64,000 nt of DNA from Prolixibacter sp. NT017 (GTDB taxonomy: Bacteria > Bacteroidota > Bacteroidia > Bacteroidales > Prolixibacteraceae): the NCBI RefSeq assembly GCF_009617875.1, contig NZ_BLAV01000001.1, positions 1,240,001-1,304,000 of the forward strand, read 5' to 3'. Shown here one piece after another: positions 40,400-64,000 of this stretch; within the stretch, counting starts at the first letter, position 1, and the number at the start of each line of letters is the position of its first letter. Position numbers and translations under genes: made by a program. The notes beneath the pieces were generated by a model. The model was not told the DNA's origin. It made no database searches and saw only the letters and a program-made list of their open reading frames with translations.

Positions 40400-43321
40400 A
40401 TGAATTCAAACGAGATTAAGACTCCCTTAAAAGTATTATTAGGGGTTGTAATTTGGTTTTTGCCGTTTATCGCTAAAGCCCAGACTGTAAACCAGGAATT
40501 TTATAAGAAACCGGAAATTATTGAAAAATCGCCTGATATTTCCAGTTTGTTTAGATACTCCGATGCTTCCTTTGATTATACAAGTGGGACAGCGAATATT
40601 AATATTCCAATCTATACAATAAAGCAAGGACGAATTGTTATTCCTATTAGTATTTCTTATAATACTGGAGGGATAAAAGTTGACGAGGTAGCAAGCATGG
40701 TTGGCTTGGGCTGGTCACTTAACTTTGGTGGCGCTATCTCAGTAGAAGGACAATCTTATTATGGTTCCCGAAATGTTCGCACTGCTCCCGTGCGTTCTTC
40801 CAGCCAGGCAATTGCCACACTCCACAACAATTATGATTATGTTTGGCAACTATCAAACGGGTATGCACAGAATGAACAAGAGAAGTATCATTTTAATGTA
40901 GATGGGCAATCCGGGATGTTTTTCTATGATATTAATAATGAGCTGCAAACTTCTCCCTCAGATTTGGGACTACGAATTGAACGGATACCAACCGATATGA
41001 GCCAGGAGGCTACCGGGTTTATTATTACGGATTCAAAAGGTATTTCATATTATTTTGCCAATAGTGAAGTGACTGTGTCAACAAGCTCCGGTGGAGCTTC
41101 ATTCAGGTCATCCTACTTACCAACAAAGATTATTGACAACAACACGGCTGATGAAGTAGATTTCTATTATAGTCAAAAACCAGTTTTTACATGGTGTGCT
41201 CATGAAACAATGAATTATTATAAGGCGGTAGCCTCGGCACCAGGGGATATTGCTGGTATTGTTACAGACTGGAATTCCACTGGTTCATATACTTCTGCTC
41301 CGGAGGAGCAAGTGACTGGACTAAGTGTGGATTCAATTGTGTTTAAGCGAGGGAGTGTTGTTTTTCATACGAAAGATGATAGAATTGATGTCGGTTCACG
41401 TAGATTGGACAATGTTATTGTTCTCAATAAATCAGATCGGATAATAAAAGAAACCAAATTTTCTCAGGGGTATTTTGTAAGCCCGGATGAGCTCAATGTT
41501 GATACTAAATATGAGAGAAGGTTAAAACTCGAAAACGTTATCGAATCAAATGGTGCCAGTACGCTTGATCAATATAGCTTTTCATACGATGAATCTGTAA
41601 AGTTACCTGCATACAAAGAAGTGTATTCCTCAATACTAAGCAACAATAGATCTGTCGATTATTGGGGATATTTTAATGGTGCGAACAATAGTGGATTGAT
41701 TCCGAGCCAGGTACCTGGCCAGTTCAATGTTACAATACCTACATTTGTTTTAGGAGATAGGAATGTGATTGCTTCGACCACGAAAGCATTTATATTGAAT
41801 AAGGTGACATATCCTACAGGTGGTTGGCTTGAACTTGAATATGAAAATAATTATTTACCTGGTTATGTTTTAGGTAGTACTATTGGAGGATTGAGGGTTA
41901 AAAGTCTAGCATATAAGAGTAATTCAAATAGTTCACCAATAAAAAAAGAATTTAGCTATTTATCTGCGAGGAACTTAACCCCATTCTTAGATTATTCGAA
42001 ATTTGGGTATACAAAAGTCAAAGGTTCGGTAGGATACGACCCGTCTGGAGCATGTGGTGTTGGGGAATATGATACTGAAGCGAACTTGTCAAGCGATCCT
42101 ATAATACCTTTTACCTACAATAATGGGGCTCCGGTATTTTATGATGTTGTTGAGGAAAGCAATTACCCGGATGATGATGGAAAGAAGATTTATTCATTTG
42201 TATATAATGCTCCACTTTACTCTGCGAATAGTATTATTGAGCTTGGTCATCAATATCCAGTCGATAATAGTTGGGAACGAGGACAACTCAAGTCAGTAGT
42301 TTCTCTCAATAATGCAAATGATACCGTGCAAAAAACGGTTTACCAATATTCAGACTTTAAAGTGTCCTATCCCAAAACAGGACTGTATGTATTTAAGCAT
42401 TCTCTGGGAGCTGGAACTCTTGAATGTTATGATTGGGTTGGTTCGGCTGCTGAATATTATAGAACATATTATTCTCAAGTACATATGGATTCGTATTATG
42501 ATTATCTCGATGCCTATGTTTCTATCGGTACCAAAAAGCTGCAAAAAAAGATTGTTACAGATTATTCTGGAACGGATAAGGTAGTAAAAACATACGATTA
42601 TACATATGGTATATATGATGGTACATATCTTGAATCAACAATAACTGAGAATACCAGCGACGGAAGCTCAATAAAGACAGTTTATAACTATCCAAGTGAC
42701 TATTCCAGCACAGCTGTTTACAGTAAAATGATATCCAATCACGATGTTTCTGATATAGTTAAAGAAACACGATTTCATAATACAGATGAAATAAGTAGTA
42801 TGGAGCGGAATTTTGGTCTGTTCAACAGTAGTCAATTGGTGGCACTATCGAACATTAAAACTAGTAATAATGGAGGTAGTTTTGCCACAGAGTTTACCTG
42901 CGATAATTATGACAGTAATGGTAATCTCAGACAAGTTACTGGCAGGGATGGAATTGCGACCACTTATTTGTGGAGTTACAACAACACTTATGTAGTAGCA
43001 AAAATTGAGAATGCGCAGTTCTCCAGTGTGAGTGGTACGGGAGATGATTTTGTTTGTTCAAATTTTGTAAATGTCTTAGGAAAGGCTACCAATCAGTCAG
43101 ATATTGAATCATTGTTATCTCAGTTGTTTTCAGCACTTAAATCTGACAGACCCTCATGTTGGCCAACGATGTATGTATTTCAGCCTCTGGTTGGGATGAT
43201 TTCTCAAATGGATTTGAATGGCCTGAAGACATATTATGATTATGATAGTTTTGGCAGGCTCGAGACCATCCAAGACAATGATTATAATTTTGTTAAATCT
43301 TTCGAATATCACTATAAATAA
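40400..43321 (+). CDS. Secreted RHS-associated N-terminal 'shell' protein
   Basis: 973 aa with signal peptide (MNSNEIKTPLKVLLGVVIWF, cleaved near KAQ, ~28). The first domain carries the motif found at the start of Bacteroidota RHS systems: ANINIPIYTIKQGRIVIPISISYNTGG, then KVDEVASMVGLGWSLNFGGAIS. The rest is beta-rich and tyrosine-rich; the last ~150 residues contain YD-like repeats (TTYLWSYNN, TYYDYDSFGRLETIQDNDYN). It has no RHS core or toxin end. Its stop is 12 bp before the next RHS gene, so the two form a split system, by analogy with TcB/TcC, where one part builds the cage wall and the other carries the cargo. Confidence 0.85.
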   Translation: MNSNEIKTPLKVLLGVVIWFLPFIAKAQTVNQEFYKKPEIIEKSPDISSLFRYSDASFDYTSGTANINIPIYTIKQGRIVIPISISYNTGGIKVDEVASMVGLGWSLNFGGAISVEGQSYYGSRNVRTAPVRSSSQAIATLHNNYDYVWQLSNGYAQNEQEKYHFNVDGQSGMFFYDINNELQTSPSDLGLRIERIPTDMSQEATGFIITDSKGISYYFANSEVTVSTSSGGASFRSSYLPTKIIDNNTADEVDFYYSQKPVFTWCAHETMNYYKAVASAPGDIAGIVTDWNSTGSYTSAPEEQVTGLSVDSIVFKRGSVVFHTKDDRIDVGSRRLDNVIVLNKSDRIIKETKFSQGYFVSPDELNVDTKYERRLKLENVIESNGASTLDQYSFSYDESVKLPAYKEVYSSILSNNRSVDYWGYFNGANNSGLIPSQVPGQFNVTIPTFVLGDRNVIASTTKAFILNKVTYPTGGWLELEYENNYLPGYVLGSTIGGLRVKSLAYKSNSNSSPIKKEFSYLSARNLTPFLDYSKFGYTKVKGSVGYDPSGACGVGEYDTEANLSSDPIIPFTYNNGAPVFYDVVEESNYPDDDGKKIYSFVYNAPLYSANSIIELGHQYPVDNSWERGQLKSVVSLNNANDTVQKTVYQYSDFKVSYPKTGLYVFKHSLGAGTLECYDWVGSAAEYYRTYYSQVHMDSYYDYLDAYVSIGTKKLQKKIVTDYSGTDKVVKTYDYTYGIYDGTYLESTITENTSDGSSIKTVYNYPSDYSSTAVYSKMISNHDVSDIVKETRFHNTDEISSMERNFGLFNSSQLVALSNIKTSNNGGSFATEFTCDNYDSNGNLRQVTGRDGIATTYLWSYNNTYVVAKIENAQFSSVSGTGDDFVCSNFVNVLGKATNQSDIESLLSQLFSALKSDRPSCWPTMYVFQPLVGMISQMDLNGLKTYYDYDSFGRLETIQDNDYNFVKSFEYHYK

Positions 43322-43333
43322 GGCGGATAAGTT

Positions 43334-46300: not shown

Positions 46301-47044
46301 AGGTTTTATGATGCGGCACTCGGGAGGTGGAGTGTTGTTGATCCCAAATCTGAAGTCTCAAGACGTTGGAGCCCGTATGTATACGGTTTTGATAATCCCA
46401 TTAGATTTATTGATCCGGATGGGATGTTGGCTGGTGACCCTCAGAAGAAAGAACCAGGAATTTTTGAGCAAGCTGTTGCTTTTTATTTGAATTTGCTTAT
46501 GAAGGCAGGTCGTTCAGCCCCCCATCCAGGAAACACAAATTCAAGTCCGGGAGAGGATATGATTAGAGGATTTAATCAAACAATTATGATTATGGCTCCT
46601 GCACTTGATGCTGTTAATGTAACAGAGGATATTAACGCTAACGCTTCTTCAACTAGTGCGGACGATGCTGTTGAAACTGAGACGTCACCTGTAAAAAATG
46701 TAGAAAGTGGAGTTGGGGAATTGGGCAGTGATAAGGTGCAAGTTCCGACGGAAGCCTATAATAGAAGTAAACATTATGGAAGAACACCTACAGCGGCAGA
46801 TAGAAAAGTTTTAGGGGCAGAGAAAGATCAGGTTGTTGATCATACTATCCCGCTAGTGCAACATTATTATGAAGGAGATGGTAACGGGGGAAAGCCAGGC
46901 TACGCAATGACTCCAGGGGAAAGAAAAGCCTTTGCAAAAGATAGAACTAAAATGCAAAAACAATCTACAAGAGAATCAAATTCGCAGGGAGGAAAGATGT
47001 CCCACTATTCAAAACAACAAAAGAAGAAATATGGACTTGATTGA
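43334..47044 (+). CDS. RHS/YD-repeat protein (DUF6443 type) with C-terminal probable nuclease toxin
   Basis: 1236 aa with signal peptide (ends SLANV, ~25). Residues ~150-900 are YD repeats beginning with the DUF6443-like KTIGTVQYIDGLGRTKQTV. The RHS core (~920-1030) has LKDHLGNTRLEV, YYPFGM, YLYNGKELQDD, WYDYGARFYDAALGRW and ends DPDGML, the usual autoproteolysis/junction region. A linker (~1035-1125) precedes a ~110-residue variable tip with KDQVVDHTIPLVQHYYEGD, MTPGERKAFAKDRTKMQKQ and SNSQGGKMSHYS; the Asp-His and Asn/His residues suggest an HNH/Endo VII-type nuclease. The base composition also drops at the tip, as expected for swapped toxin modules. Confidence 0.88.
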   Translation: MSKKYINRFYLLLVLILSSNISLANVFQDYSVSWYFTDFMTSAVSGGGAVSVSIKNDTLDVRFSAGFASCPMKTGRIKDLNTTPALPDINLGLVANTYTAYIQSGGLYVSGPSGVPISGFNSEFVINLRNFVGITYQLTSTENYIFTREVQTAGVTHNSELTYDKTIGTVQYIDGLGRTKQTVRVGASPMGDDLVKPVRYDAVGREAMKFLAYPGENSDGSYVSADSVGQVGYYTGLYGSNDGTTAFAKTEYDGSPLNRVLKQGAPGYAWQPGQHPVKQAYGTNAANEVKLWKVTNGVLTDGGYYIAATLYKTTTWDENNTQSSNTSRTEEFKDKQGRIVMKVAWNGSTPSRTAYVYDDLGMLRFVLTPDAMADNTVSSSELADYCYQYTYDDRKRMIEKKLPGEGPVYMVYDNRDRLVASQDSNQRALGQWQFIKYDALNRPVMTGIKSLSDSRSSLQSYLDSYSGIYYEYSSTSGIGYTLSNSFSGKFGISESNLLSVTYYDGYSYPGCKTFNSSANVSGYSDSSGSSYYFDDVRGQVTGTRKKVLNGNELTTSGVWLLTTTYYDDRYRVIETLKDLYPQSSGNYEVTSSKYDFTGRVLQSKTLQAFLGNSNTVLETYSYDHMGRMTQIKYKLNSNAEVTLASLDYDEQGHLKRKTLHGAPGAGAQELNYSYNIRGWLSRINNPDVNPSSSSKEKWNMALYYDTTPSGLTANPQYNGNISGMVWNTPYNSGALSPTGKQGYGFIYDGLNRLTAADYGEGSSLTTNANANNVNISLYDQNGNIRNLSRSLKGTGTIDNLSYTYQGNQLKKVDDSANDNVGFTESVSQTTEYTYDGNGNLTTDANKGLTDIQYNYLNLPRKVIAGSQNITYIYTADGTKVEKIQPSGTALYYAGNFVYQGSSLKYILNEEGMVTTPSTPVYLYDLKDHLGNTRLEVNSSGTVTQQTDYYPFGMALKIAGSSDNKYLYNGKELQDDAIGNGTLDWYDYGARFYDAALGRWSVVDPKSEVSRRWSPYVYGFDNPIRFIDPDGMLAGDPQKKEPGIFEQAVAFYLNLLMKAGRSAPHPGNTNSSPGEDMIRGFNQTIMIMAPALDAVNVTEDINANASSTSADDAVETETSPVKNVESGVGELGSDKVQVPTEAYNRSKHYGRTPTAADRKVLGAEKDQVVDHTIPLVQHYYEGDGNGGKPGYAMTPGERKAFAKDRTKMQKQSTRESNSQGGKMSHYSKQQKKKYGLD

Positions 47045-47588
47045 TTATAAAACGTCTATTAGGGCACATTATGAGTCCTTTTGGAAAGCGAAAGCTACGG
47101 AAAAAAGGTGGTTGGATGGTCCCTATCAAAAATTGCCAAATGAATTTTGTATCTTAGAGTTTGAACCGACGGAGAGAAGAAAGATGTGGACCTATGCAAC
47201 ATGCTGCATGTCTCAGATGGATGATAAAAACCCCATTGAGCTACATCTTTTTTCAAAAGAGAAAGACGATACTTATATTGAGTTGTTAACTATTGTTGCC
47301 TATTATCATAGAACAAACAATTTCTTGGATCTATGGCATACAGTAAATTTTGGTAGACCTTTGGTTGAGAAATCGACCTGTTCTTATGGTTTGATTTCTT
47401 TACCCTATTTAGATGGGCCGAACCTTGAAAATTCAGATATTAAAAAAAATGTTAAGTTTTACTGGCTTATCCCAATTACTAAAAGGGAAAGAGATTTTAA
47501 ATTTGAAAATGGGATAGACTCCTTGGAGGAAGCTTTTGAAAAAAATAGTTTTGACTATTTAGATCTCTATAGAAAAAGTGTTATTTAG
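47031..47588 (+). CDS. SUFU-family immunity protein
   Basis: 185 aa from the ATG at 47031, which overlaps the toxin gene's last 14 bp; the longer frame to 46932 is ignored because it lies wholly within toxin coding sequence. Family features of suppressor-of-fused proteins are strong: MWTYATCCMSQ, ELHLFSKEKDD, LLTIVAYYHRT, LDLWHTVNFGRPLVEKSTCSYGLISLPYLDGPNLE and FYWLIPITKRERDFKFENG, then FDYLDLYRKSVI. Bacterial SUFU proteins are known immunity proteins of polymorphic toxins. Cytoplasmic, it would protect the producer by binding the RHS tip nuclease. Confidence 0.9.
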   Translation: MDLIDYKTSIRAHYESFWKAKATEKRWLDGPYQKLPNEFCILEFEPTERRKMWTYATCCMSQMDDKNPIELHLFSKEKDDTYIELLTIVAYYHRTNNFLDLWHTVNFGRPLVEKSTCSYGLISLPYLDGPNLENSDIKKNVKFYWLIPITKRERDFKFENGIDSLEEAFEKNSFDYLDLYRKSVI

Positions 47589-47593
47589 TGATA

Positions 47594-48528: not shown

Positions 48529-48945
48529 ATGAACAAATTTTCCATCACCTCAAGGAAGCTGAAAGGCTTTACATTGCCGGAACTGTTAGTTGTTCTGGTC
48601 ATTATCGGCATCTTGTTGCTGATTGCATTGCCTAACCTGATGCCGCTGATATCCAGGGCAAAAAGTACGGAGGCGCAGATGCAGTTGAACCATCTGTATA
48701 CATTGGAAAAGAATTATTTCTACCTGCATTCGAAATACACGAATGAGATTGACCAACTCGATTTTGTACAGGAGAAACTGGTCACCGACGGAGGGAATGC
48801 CAATTACCAGATAACTATTACCGAGGCAACGGCCAATACCTTCAAGGCGAAAGCTACGGCCGTGGTTGATTTCGATGGTGACGGCGTATTCAATGTCTGG
48901 GAGATTGACCAGGATAATAACCTGAAACAGGTCACCAAGGATTGA
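48529..48945 (+). CDS. gspG: Major pseudopilin (GspG-like)
   Basis: 138 aa. Type III/IV prepilin leader RKLKG|FTLPELLVVLVIIG: cleavage after Gly13, Phe14 at +1 and Glu18 at +5, followed by the hydrophobic N-terminal helix. The C-terminal globular part ends with an acidic DFDGDGVFNVWEID loop, like the calcium site that stabilises GspG. It should polymerise into the secretion pseudopilus. First gene of the operon; its TGA overlaps the peptidase ATG (TGATG). Confidence 0.92.
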   Translation: MNKFSITSRKLKGFTLPELLVVLVIIGILLLIALPNLMPLISRAKSTEAQMQLNHLYTLEKNYFYLHSKYTNEIDQLDFVQEKLVTDGGNANYQITITEATANTFKAKATAVVDFDGDGVFNVWEIDQDNNLKQVTKD

Positions 48946-49475
48946 TGGTTGGGTTGCTGTTGTTATCGGTTCTCTTTTTGCTTCTCATTGCCGTATCTGA
49001 TTTCCGTACCCGGGAAATACCGGTTTTGTTACTGTTGGCAGCGTTCATACTCTCCGCCGGGATACGTTATTTGCTGGTCGGAAAAGAGTTGTTTTGGGAA
49101 GGGCCGGTTAATCTGGTGGCTATCGGGTTACAGGTATTCGTTTTGTGGGCCTGGATACGGTTTGGGAAAAAGAACAGCGGCGATCTGTTTTCGGGTTTTG
49201 GCCCGGCAGATGTGGTGATGCTCATCATCATCGGGGTAAACTTTACGCTCGCCGGTTACCTGGTGTTCATTTCGTTGGTTAGCTTTTTAACGCTGCTTGT
49301 ATGGATAATCGTGACCAGGATAAGTAAGTCAATAGATGCCACAATACCGTTTGCCGGATTTCTGGCAGCCGGGCTGATTATATACCAATTTTCCCTGCTA
49401 TGGATGGGAACGAAAGTCGATTGGGTCGACCTATACATTGGAAAGGTGATTTATGGATTATCAGGAAGTTTTTGA
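48945..49475 (+). CDS. A24 prepilin peptidase, short form with GPAD motif
   Basis: 176 aa from ATG 48945 (the frame can also open at TTG 48942). About six membrane helices. The first catalytic aspartate is Asp19 in SDFRTREIP, matching TFPP/preflagellin peptidases. The second is Asp89 in GFGPADVVM; the usual G-x-G-D is here G-P-A-D. The N-terminal cysteine/methyltransferase domain of PilD is absent, so it would cleave but not N-methylate pseudopilins. Overlaps gspE by 23 bp. Confidence 0.85.
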   Translation: MVGLLLLSVLFLLLIAVSDFRTREIPVLLLLAAFILSAGIRYLLVGKELFWEGPVNLVAIGLQVFVLWAWIRFGKKNSGDLFSGFGPADVVMLIIIGVNFTLAGYLVFISLVSFLTLLVWIIVTRISKSIDATIPFAGFLAAGLIIYQFSLLWMGTKVDWVDLYIGKVIYGLSGSF

Positions 49476-50877
49476 ATTAAGTACCGAACACCGGCAGTTG
49501 TTATCGACGGCCCAGGCATGGTATCTCCGGATTATTCCGGCGGGACACACCAATGGTAAGCTTCATTTCTTTTATGAGGAGGAGAAAGATGTTGCGCAAC
49601 TGCAAAACGAGCTGGAGGTATTGCTGGGCAAAGAGGTGGCGTTAAAACCGGTGCCATCGGATTGGATTACCCGGCAACTGAACCGGCACTATCCCAATAA
49701 TCACCAACGGAAGAATGTAGAATGGCTCAATTCCCAATCGAAGGATCTGTTGTCGATGATCCTGGAGGAAGCGGCCAAAATCAAGAGCAGTGATATTCAC
49801 CTGGAACCTTACGAGGAGCGGTGCCGGGTCCGGTTCCGCATCGACGGCAAGCTGGTAGAGCGGTATGTGATACCTACTACCGAATATCCGGCCATTGTGA
49901 ATAAAATTAAGATCAAATCGCATCTGGATATCTCTGAAAAGCGGCTGCCACAGGATGGGCGTATCATTTACGAGCAGGGAGGAGTCAAGTTCGATTTAAG
50001 GGTGTCGGTGTTACCCACCTTGTATGGCGAAAAAGTCGTGTTGCGTTTGCTGAACCGCGATGCTACTCAGATCCAAATTGACCGGTTGGGATTTAGCGAA
50101 GTACAATTGTCTAAATACCTGGAAGGAATAAAAAATCCCAACGGATTGATTTTGATTAGCGGACCGACCGGCTCGGGTAAAACCACAACGTTATATGCTA
50201 CGCTGAAGTTGCTGAACCGCAATGAAACGAACATTTTAACCATCGAGGACCCGATTGAATATATGCTGGAAGGCATTAACCAGGTTCAGTTGAAGGAGGC
50301 CATCGGGTTAACGTTTGGCAGTGCGCTCCGCACTTTCCTGCGACAAGACCCGGATATTATCATGGTCGGTGAGATTCGCGACGGAGATACGGCCCAAATG
50401 GCAGTTCGGGCGGCGCTGACCGGCCATCTGGTTTTATCGACAGTACACACGAATTCTGCATGGGGTACCATTTCCCGGTTAATCGATATGGGGATTCCTC
50501 CTTACCTGATTTCTTCCACCGTAAAGTTGAGTATCGCGCAGCGGCTGGTACGTAAACTTTGTCCGCACTGCAAAAAAGAAGAAGCGTTTAGAGCAACCGA
50601 TGTACGTTGGAACTACCGGCCGGAAGTTTTCCCGGAAAGCCATTTTACGGCTGCGGGATGTCCTGAGTGTTTTTATACGGGGTATCACGGGCGTATTGCC
50701 GTGTACGAGGTGATTACGATTGATGATGATCTGCGGGAGATGATTCGCAGGAATGAATTGAATGCAACCGAATATCATGAGAAGGAGAAAATTAAAACAT
50801 TGTCTGATCAAGCCTTTCAATTACTGGTCGATGGAACGACTTCCCTGGAAGAGGTGTATTCCATTCTTTCCGGTTGA
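49453..50877 (+). CDS. gspE: Type II secretion / T4P assembly ATPase (GspE)
   Basis: 474 aa AAA+ ATPase. N-terminal N2 domain (~60-180, SKDLLSMILEEAAKIKSSDIHLEPYEERCRVRFRIDG), Walker A GPTGSGKTTTLYATL with Lys243, Asp box and His box (EDPIEYMLEGINQVQ, LSTVHTN), Walker B GEIRD. A tetracysteine zinc module (C370-x2-C373 ... C403-x2-C406) is present as in GspE/PilB. The N1 domain is reduced. It powers pseudopilus extension at the inner membrane with GspL and GspF. Confidence 0.95.
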   Translation: MDYQEVFELSTEHRQLLSTAQAWYLRIIPAGHTNGKLHFFYEEEKDVAQLQNELEVLLGKEVALKPVPSDWITRQLNRHYPNNHQRKNVEWLNSQSKDLLSMILEEAAKIKSSDIHLEPYEERCRVRFRIDGKLVERYVIPTTEYPAIVNKIKIKSHLDISEKRLPQDGRIIYEQGGVKFDLRVSVLPTLYGEKVVLRLLNRDATQIQIDRLGFSEVQLSKYLEGIKNPNGLILISGPTGSGKTTTLYATLKLLNRNETNILTIEDPIEYMLEGINQVQLKEAIGLTFGSALRTFLRQDPDIIMVGEIRDGDTAQMAVRAALTGHLVLSTVHTNSAWGTISRLIDMGIPPYLISSTVKLSIAQRLVRKLCPHCKKEEAFRATDVRWNYRPEVFPESHFTAAGCPECFYTGYHGRIAVYEVITIDDDLREMIRRNELNATEYHEKEKIKTLSDQAFQLLVDGTTSLEEVYSILSG

Positions 50878-52870: not shown

Positions 52871-52880
52871 GGAAGACGTT

Positions 52881-54647: not shown

Positions 54648-55590
54648 AATTCTGAATACTATCCTGGGAATGACATTGTTGGTTGCGATGGCAGGATGCG
54701 ATTCCTTTTTCGAGGACGATATTTCTAACCGTACGGTCGAACTAGTCTCTCCGGCCGATCAGGTCGAAACCGATATTCTTACGCAGACTTTTTATTGGGA
54801 TGTGGTCAAAGGAGCCTCATCGTACCGATTACAGATCGTCACTCCATCATTTGCCAACGCAGAGAATTTAGTACTCGATACCCTGGTAACGGATAATAAA
54901 TACACGTATAGTTTATTCCCGGCAGAATTTGAATGGCGGGTCAGAGCAGAGAATAGTGTGTATCAGTCCGGATGGTCCTCTTCACATTTAACGATTTACA
55001 GCAGTGACGATTTGACCCGGCAAAAAGTGCAGCTCGTATCGCCGCACGATGCAAAGATTACCAACAGTACTGACATATCTTTTGTGTGGGATGCCTTGTA
55101 CAATGCCGATAATTACCAAATTGCCATATACAAAGGCTCCTGGGAAGGAGAGACGGTCGTAGCGCCAGTCAGCGTTGATGGAACCAGCTATGAAGGAACA
55201 TTGTCGGAAGGCACGTTCTTTTGGGGCGTGCAGGCTCAGAATCAGACCTCGGAAACTTCCTACACCATTCAGTCGATGGTGATCGATCAAACGCCGCCCA
55301 ACGTTCCGGTATTGACCTCTCCGGAGAATAATGCTACGGTTGCTTCCACGTCGGTTCAGTTTGCATGGAACAGCAGTGATTCGGGTAGCGGCATTGCACA
55401 GGATACGGTAAAGGTTTATTCCGATAAGAATTTGTCGACACTGGTGGATGCGGTTGCTTCATCCGACCAACAGGCACAAATTACTTTAGCAGATCGGACG
55501 ACCTACTACTGGACTGTTCTTTCAGTCGATAAGGCGGGGAATGTAGGAGCCCGGGCTAGCGTCGATACGCTCACCGTTCGGGTCAACTAA
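54634..55590 (+). CDS. Lipoprotein with three FN3/Ig-like domains
   Basis: 318 aa. Lipobox VAMAGC (Cys22). Three repeats of ~95 residues (about 33-125, 130-220, 225-318), each starting with a VxLVSPxD/LTSPEN motif and containing F.W......Y.. and FxW..QA.N strands, typical of fibronectin III-like folds. Overlaps gspM by 14 bp, so it is part of the secretion operon. It could be a secretin pilotin, a surface adhesin or a docking protein for secreted cargo; no such protein belongs to the classic T2SS. Confidence 0.82.
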   Translation: MKTNRILNTILGMTLLVAMAGCDSFFEDDISNRTVELVSPADQVETDILTQTFYWDVVKGASSYRLQIVTPSFANAENLVLDTLVTDNKYTYSLFPAEFEWRVRAENSVYQSGWSSSHLTIYSSDDLTRQKVQLVSPHDAKITNSTDISFVWDALYNADNYQIAIYKGSWEGETVVAPVSVDGTSYEGTLSEGTFFWGVQAQNQTSETSYTIQSMVIDQTPPNVPVLTSPENNATVASTSVQFAWNSSDSGSGIAQDTVKVYSDKNLSTLVDAVASSDQQAQITLADRTTYYWTVLSVDKAGNVGARASVDTLTVRVN

Positions 55591-55613: not shown

Positions 55614-56093
55614 ATGTTGAAGAATAAGAAACTGATCTATCTTTTGTTGCCGTTGGTCCTGCTCATCTGGGGATTGATATTTTACCGTATTTATACGAAC
55701 CTGCATGGGAAACAGGTCAACTCCTCTTTCAGAAAGCAGGTGACGAAAGAAATCGATGTATCCAATAACGAAGAGAAGCCTAAGCTGTCTCTGAATTATC
55801 CCGATCCGTTTTTAAAAAGTGCTTCAGGCGGGAGAGTGAAAACGAAAGTGAGTCATCAGCCTACCGATGAGCATTCCCAACCGGTTAACTGGCCCGTGAT
55901 TACCTACCGGGGAATGGTAAGGAGTGAGAAGCAAAAGGCGAAGGTCATGGGGTTTCTTCGCGTCGGGACCAAAGATATGTTGGTGCATAAGGGAGATGTA
56001 GCGCATGAACTGACTGTGATCCGCATTGCGAAAGATTCTATTCAGCTGGAAAACCAGGGTAAAAAGAGATGGTTCCGGGTGCGTGAAAAATAG
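55614..56093 (+). CDS. gspC: GspC/PilP-like connector
   Basis: 159 aa. N-terminal transmembrane helix (~residues 8-27), a linker with NYPDPF (the pattern at the start of PilP/GspC HR domains), and a small beta domain (ITYRGMVRSEKQKAKVMGFLRVGTKDMLVHKGD...LTVIRIAKDSIQLENQGKKRWFRV) matching the HR domain that binds the secretin N0 domain. It links inner and outer membrane parts. No PDZ domain, which is common in short GspC/PilP variants. Confidence 0.85.
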   Translation: MLKNKKLIYLLLPLVLLIWGLIFYRIYTNLHGKQVNSSFRKQVTKEIDVSNNEEKPKLSLNYPDPFLKSASGGRVKTKVSHQPTDEHSQPVNWPVITYRGMVRSEKQKAKVMGFLRVGTKDMLVHKGDVAHELTVIRIAKDSIQLENQGKKRWFRVREK

Positions 56094-56337: not shown

Positions 56338-56913
56338 ATGAGAAATTTAGCGGTTGTTTTTTTTCTGGTTTTATGGTTCACGTCATGCCGGTCAACTTCC
56401 GATGTCCCGGAAATCACTCATCGGAAAATCAGTGTGGTATCGGGCAATGGTACGGTGGAAGCGAATATTCTGATTGAGCGAAATAAAAAAGCAGCAAAAG
56501 GAGATCCGGCCAAAATGTACGCTGGGTATTACCTGAGCGGAATTCACTATACACAGGGAATGGTCGTTGGGCATCCGCTGGACGGTTTATACCAGAAGTT
56601 TGATGGAGATAACCAGCTAATGATTTCCGGAAAATACAAAGATGGCTTGAAAGATGGTTTGTGGCGGAAATGGGATAAGGCAGGTAAGTTGACAGAATCT
56701 TCAACCTATCGGAAGGGAATACTGGATGGAGAGCGCCGGATTTATTTCCATGGACAGCCGGCAAGTATCGAGCAATATAAAAAAGGTGAACTGGATGGGA
56801 AACAAATCACATTTGTCAGTAACGACTCCGTCCGGGTGGAGCGGTACCGCAATGGAGAGAAGATAGCGAAAAAGCATTTGTTTCATCGACTGTTTCATTC
56901 CTCTAAAAAATGA
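56338..56913 (+). CDS. MORN-repeat (YwqK-type) lipoprotein
   Basis: 191 aa. Lipoprotein signal LWFTSC (Cys17). The C-terminal half has MORN/YwqK repeats with period ~20-23: GLYQKFDGDNQLMISGKYKDG, GLWRKWDKAGKLTESSTYRKG, GERRIYFHGQPASIEQYKKG, GKQITFVSND. Such repeats form extended beta-sheets and mediate protein or lipid contacts. It lies inside the secretion operon and is not a known T2SS part. It could have been inserted with the flanking repeats (S copy 1 upstream, R copy 1 downstream). Confidence 0.82.
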   Translation: MRNLAVVFFLVLWFTSCRSTSDVPEITHRKISVVSGNGTVEANILIERNKKAAKGDPAKMYAGYYLSGIHYTQGMVVGHPLDGLYQKFDGDNQLMISGKYKDGLKDGLWRKWDKAGKLTESSTYRKGILDGERRIYFHGQPASIEQYKKGELDGKQITFVSNDSVRVERYRNGEKIAKKHLFHRLFHSSKK

Positions 56914-57106: not shown

Positions 57107-58405
57107 ATGAAAATACTGTTTTCAACATATCGGGATAAGCCATTTAGGAAGAGACCGGGATATGGGTTGAAAGGCGGTGCGCTATATTTTGCCATTTTGG
57201 TCCTCCTGTTGCTGAGTGTTCTGTCCTCATTCTTTATTCTTCTGGAACGGTTGTGGAATGAAGAGGATGTTCAGTATATCAAAAATGTGGAACTGAATGA
57301 TCGAATTGAGTCAGCGGCAGAGTGGTTGCATGCCGATCCTTCCCTTGTTCGGCCAGAAGAAACCAAAGAGCTTACCCTTTTTGAAGACAGTGTATTTGTT
57401 GAGATAGGGGTACGCCCCTGGGGAATGCTCCGGATAGCGAATTATCGCACTCAATGGCACCGGATGGAGAAGGAATACACCGAGTTGTTGGCAGCTGAAG
57501 ATGAACCATCTTACGCCCTGTATTTGACGGATCAGAATAAATATTTATCGCTGGTTGGACAGAGTTCATTGATGGGTAAATGTCAACTGCCCCATCTGGG
57601 AATACGGAGTGGAAACATCAGGGGGAGGACGTTTGAAGGGGAAAAACTGGTAGACGGAAATGTCTCTCCCAGTGATACCCGGCTGCCGGCTCTTTCAGAA
57701 CATTTTCAGGATTTTGCGGCTGCCTACCTGAATGGCGACTTCACAAAGCAGGACAGTGTGATAGCGCTTAGCAAGGTCGAAAGAAATGGCCTGCATCAGT
57801 TTTCGTTTCATCATAAGACTTGTGTGATAAATTGCGGAGGTTCTGCTTACCTGGATAATGTTCAGCTGGAAGGAAATGCTGTTGTATTGGCAAGGGATAC
57901 CCTTGTTGTATCTCCGGGTGCCCAATTGGAGAATACCATCCTGATAGCCCGGGTGATTCGGGTGGAGGATAAGGTGACAGGGCGTTTTCAGGCTTTTGCC
58001 ACAAAAGAGATTACGATTGGGAAGGATTGCCGGCTGAACTACCCCTCTTTTCTGGTTTGCCTGAATAACCGGACGCCCGGGAAGATAACATTTGGGAAAA
58101 AAAGTACCGTCATCGGCGGCATAGCGTTGAACGGCAAAAATGAGGAGCACAAGAACAATTTGCTGTTTTTGGATGAAGACGATCACCTGGCCGGAACGGT
58201 CTATGTGAATGGTGATGTCCATTTTACCGGCCGTATCGACGGTCGGTTATACTGCAACCGGTTTGTCATTGATACGCCCCGGGCTTTTTACGAGAATATC
58301 ATTGTCGATGGCATCATCGATAATACCAGTACACCTGCTTTATTTGGCTCTTTCTCTGTTTCCGATCAACCATTTCAACTAAAACAGGTAGCGATATGCC
58401 AGTAA
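57107..58405 (+). CDS. GspK/PilX-like minor pseudopilin with beta-helix-like C-terminus
   Basis: 432 aa. A basic N-terminus and LKGG|ALYFAILVLLLLSVLSSFF resemble a minor pseudopilin of the GspK/PilX group, without the +5 glutamate, as in GspK. The second half (~230-400) is repetitive beta structure (CVINCGGSAYLDNVQLEGNAVVLARDTLVVSPGAQ..., TFGKKSTVIGGIALNG, GTVYVNGDVHFTGRIDG), similar to bactofilin-type beta-helices. Unknown precise role; probably at the pseudopilus tip. Overlaps the GspI-like gene by 10 bp. Confidence 0.72.
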   Translation: MKILFSTYRDKPFRKRPGYGLKGGALYFAILVLLLLSVLSSFFILLERLWNEEDVQYIKNVELNDRIESAAEWLHADPSLVRPEETKELTLFEDSVFVEIGVRPWGMLRIANYRTQWHRMEKEYTELLAAEDEPSYALYLTDQNKYLSLVGQSSLMGKCQLPHLGIRSGNIRGRTFEGEKLVDGNVSPSDTRLPALSEHFQDFAAAYLNGDFTKQDSVIALSKVERNGLHQFSFHHKTCVINCGGSAYLDNVQLEGNAVVLARDTLVVSPGAQLENTILIARVIRVEDKVTGRFQAFATKEITIGKDCRLNYPSFLVCLNNRTPGKITFGKKSTVIGGIALNGKNEEHKNNLLFLDEDDHLAGTVYVNGDVHFTGRIDGRLYCNRFVIDTPRAFYENIIVDGIIDNTSTPALFGSFSVSDQPFQLKQVAICQ

Positions 58406-58776
58406 AACGTTTACATACACTCCGGGGAAGTACCATGATTGAAGTGGTGGTCGGATTTTTTCTCATCTCTCTGGCCGTCGGGTTGACAACCGTGCTGTTT
58501 AACCAGGTCATGAACAGTTCCGTGCTGTACTCCCGGCACCGGGCTTATCTGGCTGTCAACAACCTGGTAGAAAAACAACAGGAACAGAACACCTATGAAG
58601 CGGTATCGGAAGAGTATGGCGATTTGGTAATCGAAGTAACATTGACTCCATTCGGTGAGAAGAAAAAGCTATACATCGTTACTTACCAGGCGATACAAAA
58701 AGAGAAGAAGGAAGTACTGTATAAGCGGCAACTGCTGAAACAGATAAAACCGAACGATCATGAAACAACAGAATAG
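58396..58776 (+). CDS. Minor pseudopilin (GspI-like)
   Basis: 126 aa. Prepilin leader LHTLRG|STMIEVVVGFFLI with Glu at +5 (Gly11/Ser12/Glu16), then a short globular domain (GDLVIEVTLTPFGEKKKLYIVTYQA). The size and short leader suit GspI/GspH. Its stop (58774-58776) lies inside repeat T copy 1. The ATG at 58760, 14 bp before the stop, may be the original start of the next gene. Confidence 0.82.
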   Translation: MPVKRLHTLRGSTMIEVVVGFFLISLAVGLTTVLFNQVMNSSVLYSRHRAYLAVNNLVEKQQEQNTYEAVSEEYGDLVIEVTLTPFGEKKKLYIVTYQAIQKEKKEVLYKRQLLKQIKPNDHETTE

Positions 58777-59180: not shown

Positions 59181-59211
59181 GGATACGAAATGAACGAAAG
59201 AAAGAGGTAAG

Positions 59212-59326
59212 AAATGGTCAGGATTCATTTATATAGTAAATCAGATTCACACGATCGCCATTATTTCGGGCGGTCTCCCTTCTCTACGTGTAGAGAGGGG
59301 CCGGGGGAGAGTAGCGTCAAATTCAG
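59212..59326 (+). repeat. 115-bp repeat S, copy 2 (inside gspJ-like frame)
   Basis: Matches 56171-56285. It supplies the ATG (59214) and the first ~38 codons of the open gspJ-like frame, so the predicted leader is repeat-derived. Confidence 0.8.
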
Positions 59327-59828
59327 GGATGGAGATTCAGGCAATCAAACGAATATCTATAGAAGACTAAAAGGATTTACCCTGATGGAGCAGATCATCG
59401 CCATCGCGCTGACCAGCCTTCTGTTGCTGATAGGTTTCACGGCCGTGATGAATTTCAACCGGCTTTTCCGGCAAATTCGGTTAAATGCCGGTGAGGATCG
59501 AAGAGTGCTGCTTCTGGAAACCCAACTTACAAACGACTGGCGTACGAGCAACGAGGCCTGGTGGGATGAGCAGTTAACCTTAAAAAAAGCTTTCAGCACG
59601 ATTACTTATCAATTCGAACCCGAATACATTATCAGAAGCTACGGTGCCCATGTCGATACATTCCGGTTAAGCAGCCGTGAATTGAACATCGGAGAAGTGA
59701 CCGGAACAAAGGGACTGGTTCGCATCCTATCCTTCCAGGTACCTACTACCAACGAGCAATATACCATTCAACTAAGCAAAGATTATCCGCAATTTAAACA
59801 ATGGGAGGCAAGAGGTTATGGCGATTAA
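59214..59828 (+). CDS. Minor pseudopilin (GspJ-like) with displaced start
   Basis: 204 aa as an open frame. The prepilin motif RRLKG|FTLMEQIIAIALTSLLLLIG lies at residues 50-74 (Gly54/Phe55, Glu59 at +5), leaving a 54-residue leader, far longer than the usual 6-25. Residues 1-~38 come from repeat S. The DNA just upstream of the motif (59343-59362, CAAACGAATATCTATAGAAG) resembles the start-like segment at 58764-58783, so the ancestral ATG is probably 58760, separated by inserted repeats T and S. AAAGAGG at 59200-59206 could now serve ATG 59214. Ends 11 bp into gspF. Confidence 0.75.
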   Translation: MVRIHLYSKSDSHDRHYFGRSPFSTCREGPGESSVKFRDGDSGNQTNIYRRLKGFTLMEQIIAIALTSLLLLIGFTAVMNFNRLFRQIRLNAGEDRRVLLLETQLTNDWRTSNEAWWDEQLTLKKAFSTITYQFEPEYIIRSYGAHVDTFRLSSRELNIGEVTGTKGLVRILSFQVPTTNEQYTIQLSKDYPQFKQWEARGYGD

Positions 59829-60978
59829 ACTTTCCAGTATCGAATCAGGGAAGCCTGTTTCCAAACAAGGAACCCGTCAGGCCAACAGGCAAAAGGGAGC
59901 TGATATTTCGTTGCTAAAGCAATACTTCACAACGAAAGGACACTTGCTGAAAGACAGGAAGAAGGAGGAGTTTTATGCCGAGATATTTTTACTTCTCCAG
60001 GCGGGTCTGGATTTGAAGAGCGCCATTGAGTTGTTTTCCTCCCAGGAGAGCAATGTCAGGTTGAAAGCGGTATTTACCGATATCGGGAACAAGCTCATCA
60101 AAGGGAGTTCCTTCTCGGATGCCCTGGAACAAACCGGACAGTTTTCGCTGTATGAATATTATAGCGTGAAAATCGGGGAGGAGAGTGGGAAACTGCCGGA
60201 AGTGGTCAGGGAACTGGGACACTATTACGAGCGGAAAATCAAACTACAGAAACAGGTTTTCGGGGCGCTCTCGTACCCGTTCATTATCCTCATTACGGCG
60301 GTTATTGTGGTTATTTTCATGATGAACTTCATTGTCCCGTTGTTTGCCGATGCCTTCAAGCGCTTCAATTCAGACTTACCCGCCTTTACACAGTCGGTAA
60401 TTGATATTTCGAACGGGTTGCGAAGCTACTGGTGGCTCATTCTTCTCGTATTCATTTCCATCGGCGTCACCGTTTTCTTTATCCGGCAAAACAAAAAGGT
60501 ACTTCGAACCCTTAGCTCCCTGGTGATTCACGTGCCGGTTGTGGGCCCGTTGCTGTTAAAAATCTATCTGGCACGCTTTTGTCAGTTCATGTCGCTCATG
60601 ACCTCGGCCAAAACGCCGTTAATCACGGCACTGGATATGGTGGGGAAGATGGTGGGATTTTTACCGTTGGAAGAAATTCTTGTTTCAGTCAGAAGCCAGA
60701 TTTACAAGGGAATGTTGCTCAATGAAGCCCTGGCATCGTATTCGCTTTTCGATGAACGGATGGTGGCATTGCTTAAAGTGGGGGAAGAGACCAATAACCT
60801 GGATGTCATTTTCCGGAAGTTGCATAGTCAGTATTCCGAAGATATCGATCACTATACCCAGTTGATGAGTTCACTCCTGGAACCGTTGATGATTGTTTTT
60901 GTGGGAGGATTGGTGGCACTTATCCTGGTAGCGATGTACCTGCCTATGTTCAAAATCGGAAATACCATGATTGGGTAG
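59818..60978 (+). CDS. gspF: Inner-membrane platform protein (GspF/PilC)
   Basis: 386 aa with two T2SSF domains: residues ~50-170 (FYAEIFLLLQAGLDLKSAIELF, KLPEVVRELGHYYERKI) and ~255-375 (FCQFMSLMTSAKTPLITALDMV, LKVGEETNNLDVIFRKLHSQY). Three transmembrane helices at ~165-190, ~208-228 and ~360-380. It couples the GspE ATPase to the pseudopilus. Last recognisable gene of the operon. Confidence 0.95.
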   Translation: MAIKLSSIESGKPVSKQGTRQANRQKGADISLLKQYFTTKGHLLKDRKKEEFYAEIFLLLQAGLDLKSAIELFSSQESNVRLKAVFTDIGNKLIKGSSFSDALEQTGQFSLYEYYSVKIGEESGKLPEVVRELGHYYERKIKLQKQVFGALSYPFIILITAVIVVIFMMNFIVPLFADAFKRFNSDLPAFTQSVIDISNGLRSYWWLILLVFISIGVTVFFIRQNKKVLRTLSSLVIHVPVVGPLLLKIYLARFCQFMSLMTSAKTPLITALDMVGKMVGFLPLEEILVSVRSQIYKGMLLNEALASYSLFDERMVALLKVGEETNNLDVIFRKLHSQYSEDIDHYTQLMSSLLEPLMIVFVGGLVALILVAMYLPMFKIGNTMIG

Positions 60979-61037: not shown

Positions 61038-61090
61038 GAAAAATGAAGCTTTACCCTTTAGGGATACAGGGTGAAAAAACTTGATTTTTC
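61038..61090. repeat. Palindromic repeat R, copy 2
   Basis: Arms GAAAAATGAAG and CTTGATTTTTC, core CCCTTTAGGG followed by ATACAGGGT. Same orientation as copy 1 (56991-57042). Confidence 0.75.
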
Positions 61091-61218
61091 TGATACGAAA
61101 TGAGTATGCTAAGAAACACCTTATGTCGAATATGGCCAATAAGATTCAGAAAAATAGGGAGATAGAAATAGTGAATGACGATTGTGTAAATTTTGTTATA
61201 AATTAATTGGAAAAAAAG

Positions 61219-61530: not shown

Positions 61531-61621
61531 TAAAAGCCCCCCGGAAAACCGGAGGGCCAACCTTTAATTTATTCACCGGGAATTGCAGTTCCCGCTAAAC
61601 CTCAAAGATATGAAAAAGTAA
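61531..61621 (+). ncRNA. Conserved twin-hairpin leader with 3-codon ORF, copy B
   Basis: Hairpin 1 at 61537-61556 (CCCCCCGG/CCGGAGGG, one mismatch), hairpin 2 at 61577-61594 (CGGGAA/TTCCCG, loop TTGCAG against TTGCCG in copy A), CTCAAAGAT, then ATG AAA AAG TAA at 61610-61621. Lies 402 bp upstream of the HU-like gene. Confidence 0.5.
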
Positions 61622-61904
61622 GTTAAAAGTCTCCATCCGACCCGGGCCGCCTATCATCGGTTCCCGCCAATTCATTATTAATGCTACCTATCCGGTTATT
61701 GGGATATCCGGAGAACGTGTTTATCTCCAACGTTTCAATAATCGCGTCCTCTCAAAACTTTTGTCGATAGAAGGAAATCTGTTTTCCTTCTGTGAAAGAT
61801 ATACCAAACTATTTTAATCAACCTGTAGTTTGAAACGAATCGGATTCAGAAAGAATCCTGTTTACTGCTTTGCCCGCAGAAATTCGGAGTTTAAAGGGAA
61901 ATTT

Positions 61905-62011: not shown

Positions 62012-62722
62012 ATGGAAAACGATGTATTGAACTACGCATTGTTCGAGAACCATCTGACAAGCGATCCGAACGATTACATGGCCGTTACCACGAACGCCAT
62101 CAGCCTCGACCAGGATGCATTGATCGATTTGATGCTGACACGGGGCTCTACCCTGACTGCCACCGATATTATGGCGGTACTGAAAATGGAACGGGAAGTG
62201 ATTTGTGAACAGGCCGCCCTGGGCAACAGTATCACGACCCCTGTATTTAACCTGAGCATGAGCATTAAGGGTGTATTTAACGGTCTGGACGATTCGTATG
62301 ACCCTTCGCGTCACAGTATTAAGTTTAACCTGAGCCCGGGAACGGAACTCCGCGAAGTGGTCGGCTCTGTGAAGACGCAAAAGGTTCGTGGCGAAAAGGT
62401 GGGTCCGGTTATCGACCAACTGGTGGATGCAGCTACGGGCAGTGTGAACGACCAGCTCACTTCGGGCGGATTGGCCACGTTGCGGGGCAGCTACCTCAAG
62501 TACGATGCAGCTGACCCTACGCAGGGCATCTTCTTTATTGCCGGAGATGGCACGGAGAGCCGTGTGGAGGTGATATCACTGAATAAACCCGGCGAGCTGC
62601 ACTTTCTGGCCCCGGCCCTGGCAGCAGGCGATTATCATGTGGAAGTACGGTCGATAATGAAAGGCCATAAGGAGCTGTCATCCGGCCGGCTGGATGCTGA
62701 TATCGCCGTGGTAGGAGGTTAA
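62012..62722 (+). CDS. HU/IHF-like DNA-binding-domain protein with DUF4469 C-terminus
   Basis: 236 aa, no signal peptide. Residues 1-~120 match the HU-like N-terminal domain of Bacteroidota 'DNA-binding domain-containing' proteins (LTSDPNDYMAVTTNAISLDQDALIDLMLTRGSTLTATDIMAVL..., TPVFNLSMSIKGVFNGLDDSYDPSRHSIKFNLSPGTELRE). Residues ~125-236 form a beta-rich DUF4469-type domain (PTQGIFFIAGDGTESRVEVISLNKPGELHFLAPALAAGDYHVEVRS). Its cellular role is not established. Located between a leader and array 2. A hairpin AGGAGGTT/AACCTCCT (62713-62731) spans its stop codon. Confidence 0.85.
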   Translation: MENDVLNYALFENHLTSDPNDYMAVTTNAISLDQDALIDLMLTRGSTLTATDIMAVLKMEREVICEQAALGNSITTPVFNLSMSIKGVFNGLDDSYDPSRHSIKFNLSPGTELREVVGSVKTQKVRGEKVGPVIDQLVDAATGSVNDQLTSGGLATLRGSYLKYDAADPTQGIFFIAGDGTESRVEVISLNKPGELHFLAPALAAGDYHVEVRSIMKGHKELSSGRLDADIAVVGG

Positions 62723-63079
62723 CAACCTCCTGCCGGCGTTACATCCCGTTATCCGGTATCCGGAACGGGAAGTTACAACTACCCGTGTCTGGTACTTATA
62801 ACTACCGGTCGAGGGATAAGGTAACTACCCGTGGCTGGTAGTTAGTACTACCGGAAGCAGGTACTGGTAACTACCTACGGATGGTAGTTAGTACTACCCG
62901 CCGCCGATCCTTATAAGGATCTTCGTCTGGTAGTTATAAGGGGTTGGAGGCGGGGAGTTGTATGAAGCCTCCGGTAGTACAAAAGCTTCTTATGATAATG
63001 TTTTTTGAAACGGCTCTTCCTTTTCCGGAAAGTCTGAATGACATTAATCTTATTATTTAATAAAACTGAACAGAAACTC
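62723..63079 (+). other. 357-bp intergenic region with array 2
   Basis: Between the HU-like gene and the second RHS gene. 62777-62960 is the 23-bp array; two possible further, weaker units precede it (62731, 62754). A GGAGGC/GCCTCC hairpin lies at ~62946-62971. The last ~100 bp is AT-rich and should hold the RHS start region. Confidence 0.6.
62777..62960 (+). repeat. Array 2: eight degenerate 23-bp units
   Basis: Unit starts at 62777, 62800, 62823, 62846, 62869, 62892, 62915 and 62938. Most begin [A/T]ACTACC and end GGTA.TTA[TG], so that unit junctions are palindromes such as GGTAGTTAGTACTACC and GATCCTTATAAGGATC. Homologous unit by unit to array 1 (48076-48259), with the same number of units. 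23 is not a multiple of 3, so the period is not a codon repeat. Confidence 0.8.
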
Positions 63080-64000
63080 ATGAAATTTAAATTAACTGTA
63101 TTGTTTTTAGTGGTATTGTTTAGTTGTCGTTTTGGTTACGCTCAAAGCCTGTTGACCAATCCGGTAATCATACCACCCTCACCTTCTGTTGCTTCTTTTC
63201 AGCAACTTGATTTCAGCCAGGTTAATCTGTACAACGGCTTACCATCGGTTGATATCCCCGTTTATGAAATCAATCAGGGTGATTTTAAATTCCCGATCAA
63301 TCTTTCGTACCATTACAGTGGTTTTAAAGTTGAAGAAGTTGCCGGCTGGCTTGGACTGGGATGGAGTATCAATGCCGGAGGTATGATTTCTCATATTGTT
63401 CGGGGGAAGCCAGATGATGACCCTGATTATGGCTATAATTGGGTCCGGGACTATCTGGGAATACCCGATCCTATAGGAAATCCGTCAGCATACAGCAGTT
63501 TTACTTCGGGCATATCAAGTGATAAGAACACATTAAGAATGTTTGCCGACGGATTATATGACGGCCTTCCGGATGACTATATTATTAGTGCCAATAACCT
63601 TACAGGCTCAATAATTGACCTTGATAATGGGAATTATGTGTCTAATCCCTACAGACATTACCTTATCTATAAGTCGTCAAACCGATGGGATATAACGGAT
63701 GAAGCAGGGAATAAATATATCTTCGGGCATATCACCGGAGACTCTGATGTGAATTATGGTATGGAAAGGACTTCCTATGAATATTCTAATAGTACCAGTA
63801 ATATCGCGGAGTCCGAGACTTACACCTCCGGTTGGTTTCTCCGCGAGATAATTACCAATACCGGTGATGTTATACAATTCAATTATACCTCGGAAACGAT
63901 TGCCAAATTACCTGGAATATCAGAAACCCGTTTCAAACTGTTAGATTTTGCCGGTAGTTGTCCGGAGATGTTTTATTCGGTATCGGAAACAACTTTTATG
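63080..64000 (+). CDS. Second RHS-associated shell protein (3' end outside window)
   Basis: 307 residues to the right edge, uninterrupted. Signal peptide MKFKLTVLFLVVLFSCRFGY, cleaved after YAQ. The N-terminal motif VNLYNGLPSVDIPVYEINQG, INLSYHYSGFKVEEVAGWLGLGWSINAGGMIS is clearly homologous to the 973-aa protein at 40400 (PIYTIKQG..., KVDEVASMVGLGWSLNFGG). So this is a second RHS-system first component, and a YD/RHS toxin gene is expected just beyond the window. Confidence 0.85.
   Translation, partial: MKFKLTVLFLVVLFSCRFGYAQSLLTNPVIIPPSPSVASFQQLDFSQVNLYNGLPSVDIPVYEINQGDFKFPINLSYHYSGFKVEEVAGWLGLGWSINAGGMISHIVRGKPDDDPDYGYNWVRDYLGIPDPIGNPSAYSSFTSGISSDKNTLRMFADGLYDGLPDDYIISANNLTGSIIDLDNGNYVSNPYRHYLIYKSSNRWDITDEAGNKYIFGHITGDSDVNYGMERTSYEYSNSTSNIAESETYTSGWFLREIITNTGDVIQFNYTSETIAKLPGISETRFKLLDFAGSCPEMFYSVSETTFM

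Follow-up and report, generated by a model that had tools for sequence, protein, structure and literature searches.

A type II secretion-like gene cluster linked to two-part Rhs toxin genes in Prolixibacter and other Bacteroidia, with the Rhs proteins as candidate cargo

The gene cluster and the Rhs modules that flank it

The 64,000-nucleotide stretch of Prolixibacter sp. NT017 analysed here (the window, taken from a genome that is a single contig of 5.14 Mb) contains a gene cluster resembling a type II secretion system (T2SS) between two modules of Rhs toxin genes, and the Rhs proteins are considered as candidate cargo of this machine. On the plus strand throughout, an Rhs A/B pair with a SUFU-domain gene (40.4-47.6 kb) is followed by the T2SS-like cluster (48.5-61.0 kb), in the gene order G-O-E-D-L-M-FN3 lipoprotein-C-MORN-K-I-J-F, and by a second Rhs module (63.0-70.5 kb) that extends beyond the window (Table 1). 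This layout of open reading frames (ORFs) and domains had been proposed in a sequence-only reading of the stretch, and its positions agree with the ORF and Pfam scans; two conserved genes of the cluster, those for the FN3/Ig-like lipoprotein and the MORN-repeat protein, had been overlooked.

Table 1. Coordinates of the T2SS-like cluster, the Rhs modules and the associated non-coding element (positions in the window unless stated).
Feature	Position	Strand	Basis or remark
Non-coding element, ~98 nt, copy 1, upstream of Rhs module 1	39926..40020	+	
Rhs A1, 973 aa	40400..43321	+	Sec-type signal, conserved GLGW..AGG N-terminal block, C-terminal YD/RHS repeats
Rhs B1, 1236 aa	43334..47044	+	Sec-type signal, DUF6443 aa 152-282 (1e-36), Rhs_assc_core aa 948-1031 (6e-14)
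SUFU-domain protein, presumed immunity gene	46932..47588	+	PF05076, 1.5e-15
GspG-like major pseudopilin, 138 aa	48529..48945	+	N_methyl 3e-8
Prepilin peptidase (GspO/PilD)	48942..49475	+	Peptidase_A24 2.5e-7
GspE-like ATPase	49453..50877	+	T2SSE 1e-129
GspD-like secretin	50960..52870	+	Secretin 2e-35
GspL-like platform protein, PilN domain	52755..54083	+	PilN 9e-6
GspM-like	54087..54647	+	Position, N-terminal hydrophobic segment, conserved family; no Pfam match
FN3/Ig-like lipoprotein, between M and C	54634..55590	+	Sub-threshold Pfam match; conserved family
GspC-like	55614..56093	+	Position, N-terminal hydrophobic segment, conserved family; no Pfam match
MORN-repeat protein	56338..56913	+	Sub-threshold MORN_2; conserved family
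GspK-position protein, 432 aa	57107..58405	+	Position, N-terminal hydrophobic segment, conserved family
GspI-like minor pseudopilin	58396..58776	+	Position, N-terminal hydrophobic segment, conserved family; no Pfam match
GspJ-like minor pseudopilin	59214..59828	+	Sub-threshold N_methyl 7e-4
GspF-like inner-membrane platform	59818..60978	+	T2SSF 2e-45
Non-coding element, ~98 nt, copy 2, upstream of Rhs module 2	61535..61632	+	
HU-like/DUF4469 DNA-binding protein	62012..62722	+	Also ahead of an Rhs A gene in G001, G002, G005
Rhs A2	63038..66829	+	In window to 64000; likely ATG 63080
Rhs B2	66857-70063	+	Beyond window (extension L021)
Small third gene after B2	70047-70535	+	Beyond window (extension L021)

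Judged by its sequence, Rhs A1 is predicted to form the upstream half of an Rhs toxin encoded by two genes, and Rhs B1 has the two features that mark an Rhs polymorphic toxin: a variable C-terminal domain behind an Rhs-associated core, and an adjacent immunity gene. The variable tail of about 205 aa (46427-47041) is the presumed toxin; the SUFU ORF overlaps B1, has a likely ATG at 47031, and is the presumed immunity gene, SUFU being an immunity family. No Pfam domain exceeds the cut-off in the toxin tails of B1 and B2 (Peptidase_M78 in B2, with an E-value of 0.21, was not counted), and the small third gene after B2 is without a Pfam match. An orphan Rhs core-plus-tail piece lies after module 2 (L021:6871-8277, window-equivalent 70871-72277) and a short Rhs B remnant lies about 0.3 kb ahead of gspG in P. 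denitrificans (G002, L012), both of which suggest displaced or decayed Rhs tips.

Linkage and co-occurrence of Rhs genes and the machine

Physical linkage was assessed in 68 contexts, many of them cut by contig ends: 62 loci of the class Bacteroidia from 61 genomes, of which G403 has two, each with at most 20 kb to either side of gspE, plus the window and five relatives in its family. Rhs genes were called from phmmer and BLAST clusters and, as a second method, with hidden Markov models (HMMs) built from those clusters and hence from the contexts themselves. By the first method, 44 of the 68 contexts contain an Rhs A or B gene, and by the second, 49; among loci whose available sequence extends 15 kb or more in both directions from gspE, such a gene lies within about 20 kb in 33 and 34 of 38, respectively, and in 28 and 29 of 33 when the window and its family are set aside. 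By the HMMs, the linkage extends to 19 of the 25 families sampled. With DUF6443 as the marker of the B protein, 11 of 36 strong matches in 18 GspE-positive genomes of the class lie less than 25 kb from gspE, where 0.38 would be expected if they were evenly spread; the background density of Rhs cores, 251 in 45 GspE-positive genomes, is 1.3 per Mb or about 0.05 per 40-kb stretch. In the 5.14-Mb genome of the window, both DUF6443 genes lie less than 18 kb from gspE, a proximity that exceeds chance.

The A and B genes form 23 head-to-tail pairs in 19 contexts, and Rhs genes are located inside the gene cluster of the machine in G005 and G412. When neighbouring ORFs of at least 90 aa were clustered, Rhs B (26 genomes) ranked directly after 13 families of the machine and was followed, with antisense-looking ORFs excluded, by Rhs A (15 genomes), a Skp-like protein (13), a giant family (12), a lipoprotein (12) and a second giant family (8). 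The giant families are relatives of Rhs A (profile E-values of 2e-37 for the second giant family and 1e-133 between the giants, with BLAST matches at the N-terminus of each). Families judged by eye to resemble integrases or transposases occur near gspE in 4-5 genomes, against the 26 of Rhs B. As a control, sprA of the type IX secretion system (T9SS) was found in 23 of 23 genomes searched, and none of the 36 strong DUF6443 matches lies less than 25 kb from it; in none of the five relatives does sprA share a contig with the DUF6443 matches. Neither A nor B was found in eight other regions with a total length of 195 kb (six 20-kb pieces, 40 kb of G003 and the first 35 kb of the window). The linkage of Rhs genes to the machine is, with near certainty, real.

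A second Rhs arrangement is also found near the machine, consisting of a Skp-like (OmpH) protein, a lipoprotein-like protein of about 200 aa, a giant A and a large Rhs B (L091:4542-15210, L083:12934-19844 and the contexts of G210 and G403b, with a different order in G403b); in G377, this arrangement has no B within the stretch examined.

Scans of whole genomes of the class scored at most 4 (GspE), 10 (DUF6443) and 14 (Rhs core) candidates per genome, and the numbers of matches are lower bounds. GspE was found in 62 of 395 genomes of Bacteroidia, which makes the earlier statement that T2SS-like loci are sparse in Bacteroidota only half right. Rhs cores are present in 58 of the 62 GspE-positive and 129 of the 333 GspE-negative genomes (odds ratio 23, p 5e-17), and DUF6443 in 46 and 50 of these, respectively (odds ratio 16, p 4e-20). 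Among 100 relatives, the genome of the window being counted, GspE was found in seven, including G009, whose match (E 9.9e-4, 30% over ~106 aa) was excluded as chance; within the window's own family, DUF6443 is present in 6 of 6 GspE-positive and 7 of 54 GspE-negative genomes (p 3e-5). Random association across genomes, which the sequence-only reading had named as the outcome that would count against a link, was not what these comparisons gave: in both co-occurrence and linkage, the association is far from random across Bacteroidia.

Gene order and the position of the Rhs genes differ between loci. Two genomes of the same genus carry the same T2SS-like locus as the window. G003, a genome of this genus that is without the machine, is also without DUF6443 and has one Rhs core; its GH31 gene is conserved, and none of the window's genes that follow GH31 was found in the 40 kb searched, so that no junction is readable and a clean empty site could not be claimed. 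That Prolixibacter acquired the machine recently by horizontal transfer was considered when a quick tree of GspE alone split G000-G002 from G005, G019 and G052 (a single origin staying compatible with GspE), and was dropped when a concatenated tree of six machine proteins joined G000, G001 and G052 (support of 100 in the SH-like approximate likelihood ratio test, SH-aLRT; G005 and G019 not included).

Identity of the machine and features around it

The cluster holds together the core of a T2SS, namely secretin, GspE, GspF, prepilin peptidase and major pseudopilin; no GspH was found in it. GspE is the single match in the whole genome at E <= 1e-3 (10 candidates scored), and GspD is the genome's sole secretin match. 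The gspL ORF begins within gspD, and its true start is probably further downstream; the true start of gspJ is probably after 59326, because the first ~37 codons of its ORF lie inside an intergenic repeat (59201-59326). The genes in the I, J, K, C and M positions are conserved across Bacteroidia loci and score below the curated cut-offs for recognition. The K-position protein has a sub-threshold bactofilin-like Pfam match at its C-terminus, a feature that is not known from GspK proteins. The FN3 lipoprotein recurs in 55 of the 68 contexts and 33 of the 38 full contexts, with a lipobox-like motif in 37 of 55, and the MORN protein in 48 of 68 and 31 of 38, with such a motif in 9 of 51; the window's MORN copy has a lipobox-like N-terminus, unlike most of its relatives.

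Scores of the window's proteins stay below the NCBIfam T2SS equivalog cut-offs (bits scored/bits required: E 498.5/630, D 133.6/351, F 234.8/424, G 37.1/89), and the pilin scores higher on the Myxococcus PilA model than on GspG (57.9 versus 37.1 bits, both far below cut-offs). A PilT-like retraction ATPase, as would mark a type IVa pilus (T4aP), was not seen: the genome of the window has one GspE-family match, and 60 of the 62 GspE-positive genomes have exactly one at E <= 1e-20 (at most four candidates scored in each), two matches being found in G403, which has two gspE loci, and in G167, where the gene is split. In a published phylogeny, the Bacteroidetes 'T2SS' branches with T4aP and may represent a new kind of secretion system (Denise et al. 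2019, PMC6668835). That system is the same kind of machine as the cluster in the window; the main text of the paper contains no mention of Rhs, YD repeats or polymorphic toxins, whereas an Rhs cargo and recurrent FN3 and MORN parts are proposed here.

A putative T2SS was also described in five Bacteroidetes, one of them Cytophaga hutchinsonii (Wang et al. 2017, PMC5553014), where mutants of C. hutchinsonii had defects in cellulose adhesion and utilisation and no direct cargo was identified; by the same paper's account, Flavobacterium johnsoniae possesses the machine. This putative T2SS resembles the cluster in the window in having a similar component set, with G-O-E-D and then L/M/C candidates by locus number, and in having minor pseudopilins and platform proteins that are weak and hard to recognise; it is tied to cellulose use, and the words 'Rhs' and 'toxin' do not occur in the main text, unlike in the proposal made here. 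Table 2 of that paper leaves a locus number unassigned between two L/M/C candidates, which is the place of the FN3 lipoprotein in the window, and to judge by the locus numbers this lipoprotein may fill it. Because the equivalog cut-offs are not reached, the published phylogeny groups such systems with T4aP and no direct cargo was named in the C. hutchinsonii case, the machine is called T2SS-like and not a proven T2SS.

The non-coding element of about 98 nt that precedes both Rhs modules of the window also precedes modules of G001, G002, G005 and G052. It has a GC-rich hairpin with a GGGAA..TTCCC inverted repeat, AAAGATATGAAAAA, and comprises two hairpins and a possible three-codon ORF (ATGAAAAAGTA); the copies in relatives are at L011:7853-7951, L013:18826-18924, L019:5440-5536, L016:18012-18114 and L020:8913-8997, all on the minus strand. 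A covariance model (R1) of six seed copies gave 7 matches in 2.6 Mb from 139 sources, six of which were its own seeds and one of which (E 0.003) was a further copy in G052, ahead of that genome's second Rhs module. All 7 matches are upstream of Rhs modules and in the window's family; the Rhs modules of G019 and G031, both among the 139 sources, gave no match, and no Rfam family matches the element. The sharing of non-coding DNA noted earlier is thus real for the two Rhs modules. No copy of the element was found upstream of gspG, so that what it connects is one Rhs module with another, not an Rhs module with the machine.

The HU-like gene ahead of module 2 is present in only 4 of the 68 contexts and is therefore not a general part of the locus. 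Repeats of 42-166 nt, belonging to several families, occupy intergenic positions inside the cluster and next to it (47853-48520, 56160-56285, 57002-57043, 58796-59326 and 61050-61091) and are also present at the loci of P. denitrificans and P. bellariivorans, and parts of the 46.9-48.5 kb stretch match elsewhere in the Prolixibacter genomes compared. Rfam otherwise gave only a sub-threshold PhrS match at 50265-50434.

The Rhs proteins as candidate cargo

A simple heuristic recognised Sec-type N-termini in 61 of 68 proteins (A, B and giant A) whose start is not cut off, and Pfam and NCBIfam models found no T9SS sorting domain of type A or B in any of 66 C-terminal segments of 110 aa near T2SS-like clusters; the combination of Sec signals with no T9SS C-terminal domain, first noticed in the window, extends to most of these Rhs proteins. 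Toxin or pretoxin domains occur at some tips (Ntox44 twice, Tox-HNH-EHHH, PT-HINT and Bfe1). Rhs polymorphic toxins such as Tse5 are delivered by the type VI secretion system. The proteins of the window share with these toxins the Rhs core, the variable toxin tip and the immunity gene, and the A profile weakly matches the Rhs shells of Tse5 and teneurin in the PDB (best E-value 8e-5); they differ in being two polypeptides with Sec-type signals, and no PAAR or VgrG was found in Pfam scans of A1 and B1. The TcB/TcC pair of Tc toxins is similar in its two consecutive genes, with an Rhs core and a variable tip in B, and different in that both proteins of the window carry Sec-type signals. SpvB, a domain of TcB-type proteins, is rare among the A homologues (2 of the 45 in alignment A2, of which 35 have RHS_repeat) and is not found in A1. 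TANFOR, a Bacteroidetes class of polymorphic toxins proposed as T9SS cargo from gene neighbourhoods (PMC7073777), resembles the Rhs proteins of the window in being Sec-exported and in having an exporter deduced from gene neighbours; its N-terminal domain is different and its neighbours are T9SS substrates, not a T2SS-like machine.

It is fairly probable, on the evidence of gene content and position, that the block combines a secretion machine with the cargo that it probably carries, and that the T2SS-like machine exports the Rhs toxins. Behind this explanation stand the gene content itself, the Sec-type N-termini, the lack of T9SS C-terminal signals and the strong linkage across many Bacteroidia families; because the linkage is so wide, the Rhs toxins are proposed as the machine's principal cargo. 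The N-terminal half A and protein B, with its Rhs core and variable toxin tail, would each cross the inner membrane via Sec and, once in the periplasm, join to form a hollow Rhs cocoon that encloses the toxin, while the immunity protein would protect the producer; such a two-part cocoon assembled in the periplasm would be the natural reading of the gene pair. The T4aP-related, T2SS-like machine would carry the folded complex through the secretin D, driven by the ATPase E, the platform F/L/M/C and a short pseudopilus of G, I, J and K; in the Bacteroidota version of the machine, the FN3 and MORN proteins would be accessory components. The exported Rhs toxins would be used against neighbouring cells. 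T2SSs carry folded proteins, and a folded Rhs cargo therefore fits the mechanism in principle.

Several points weigh against export of Rhs proteins by the machine. Linkage is not transport, export being predicted from the genes and their positions, and the fit of an Rhs cocoon through the secretin may be a question of size. The linkage is not universal: the well-covered loci G146, G425, G409 and G403a are without an Rhs neighbour by the HMMs, as is G313 by BLAST and phmmer. As a core gene, sprA is an imperfect control, the set of random regions is small, and the HMMs derive from the contexts in which they were used. The C. hutchinsonii machine has been tied to cellulose use, in a text that speaks of neither Rhs nor toxins (PMC5553014). 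Strong DUF6443 matches occur in 20 of the 333 GspE-negative genomes, and at 15 GspE-negative loci (12 genomes) and in G031 of the window's family, A lies beside B in the same A-B order with similar signal-like N-termini; therefore, either another export route exists or the machine has been lost there. Since the concatenated tree (35 of 47 contexts with all six genes) keeps the three tested families together, the genomes are not independent and the association is partly one of shared ancestry, for which, of the comparisons made, only that within the window's family corrects, and only in part.

The GspE-negative A/B pairs would be accommodated if the machine and the Rhs modules were neighbours without a shared job that gather in variable parts of the chromosome, with the Rhs proteins leaving by T9SS, vesicles or lysis; the proposal of TANFOR toxins as T9SS cargo from neighbourhood data (PMC7073777) and the presence of sprA in every genome tested are in keeping with this. 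Such an explanation is unlikely, given that no other accessory family recurs near gspE as Rhs B does, the integrase- and transposase-like families included, that none of the C-termini has a T9SS signal, and that the linkage is found in most of the families sampled. A general secretion machine, for which Rhs proteins would be one cargo among several (such as adhesion or hydrolase-type surface proteins) and which would not be a dedicated toxin system, is more doubtful still: it would explain the cellulose phenotypes of the C. hutchinsonii mutants (PMC5553014) and the 4 or 5 of 38 well-covered loci without an Rhs neighbour, but besides the Rhs A relatives no large secreted family approaches the recurrence of Rhs B beside gspE, nearly all GspE-positive genomes have an Rhs core somewhere, and the single PKD protein tested (G404) bears a CHU_C type IX signal and is therefore probably T9SS cargo. 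That the cluster produces a type IV pilus-like fibre instead of an exporter, with the Rhs proteins displayed on it or being unrelated surface proteins, is very improbable despite the PilA score of the pilin and the published grouping with T4aP (PMC6668835), given the single GspE-family match in almost all GspE-positive genomes (G403 and G167 being explained), the lack of any PilT-like retraction ATPase among those matches and the GspL-like protein with its PilN domain.

Export of Rhs toxins by the T2SS-like machine thus remains the favoured explanation. A more specific form of it can be put forward only tentatively: that this is a dedicated Bacteroidota secretion system, derived from T4aP and distinct from the proteobacterial T2SS, which moves the A-B capsule, assembled and filled with toxin beforehand, out of the periplasm as a single folded particle, and which is marked by the FN3 lipoprotein, the MORN protein and the bactofilin-like K. 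No published link of the T2SS-like machine to Rhs proteins in Bacteroidota was found in the open-licence literature of PubMed Central, which is weak evidence of absence. The Bacteroidota 'T2SS' is possibly a separate system for which the publications cited here name no direct cargo, and the linkage to Rhs genes supplies a concrete candidate. If the favoured explanation is correct, Rhs toxins that are exported by Sec and have no T9SS signals would have an exit route, and Bacteroidota would possess a system that passes very large toxin capsules, assembled beforehand, through a secretin.

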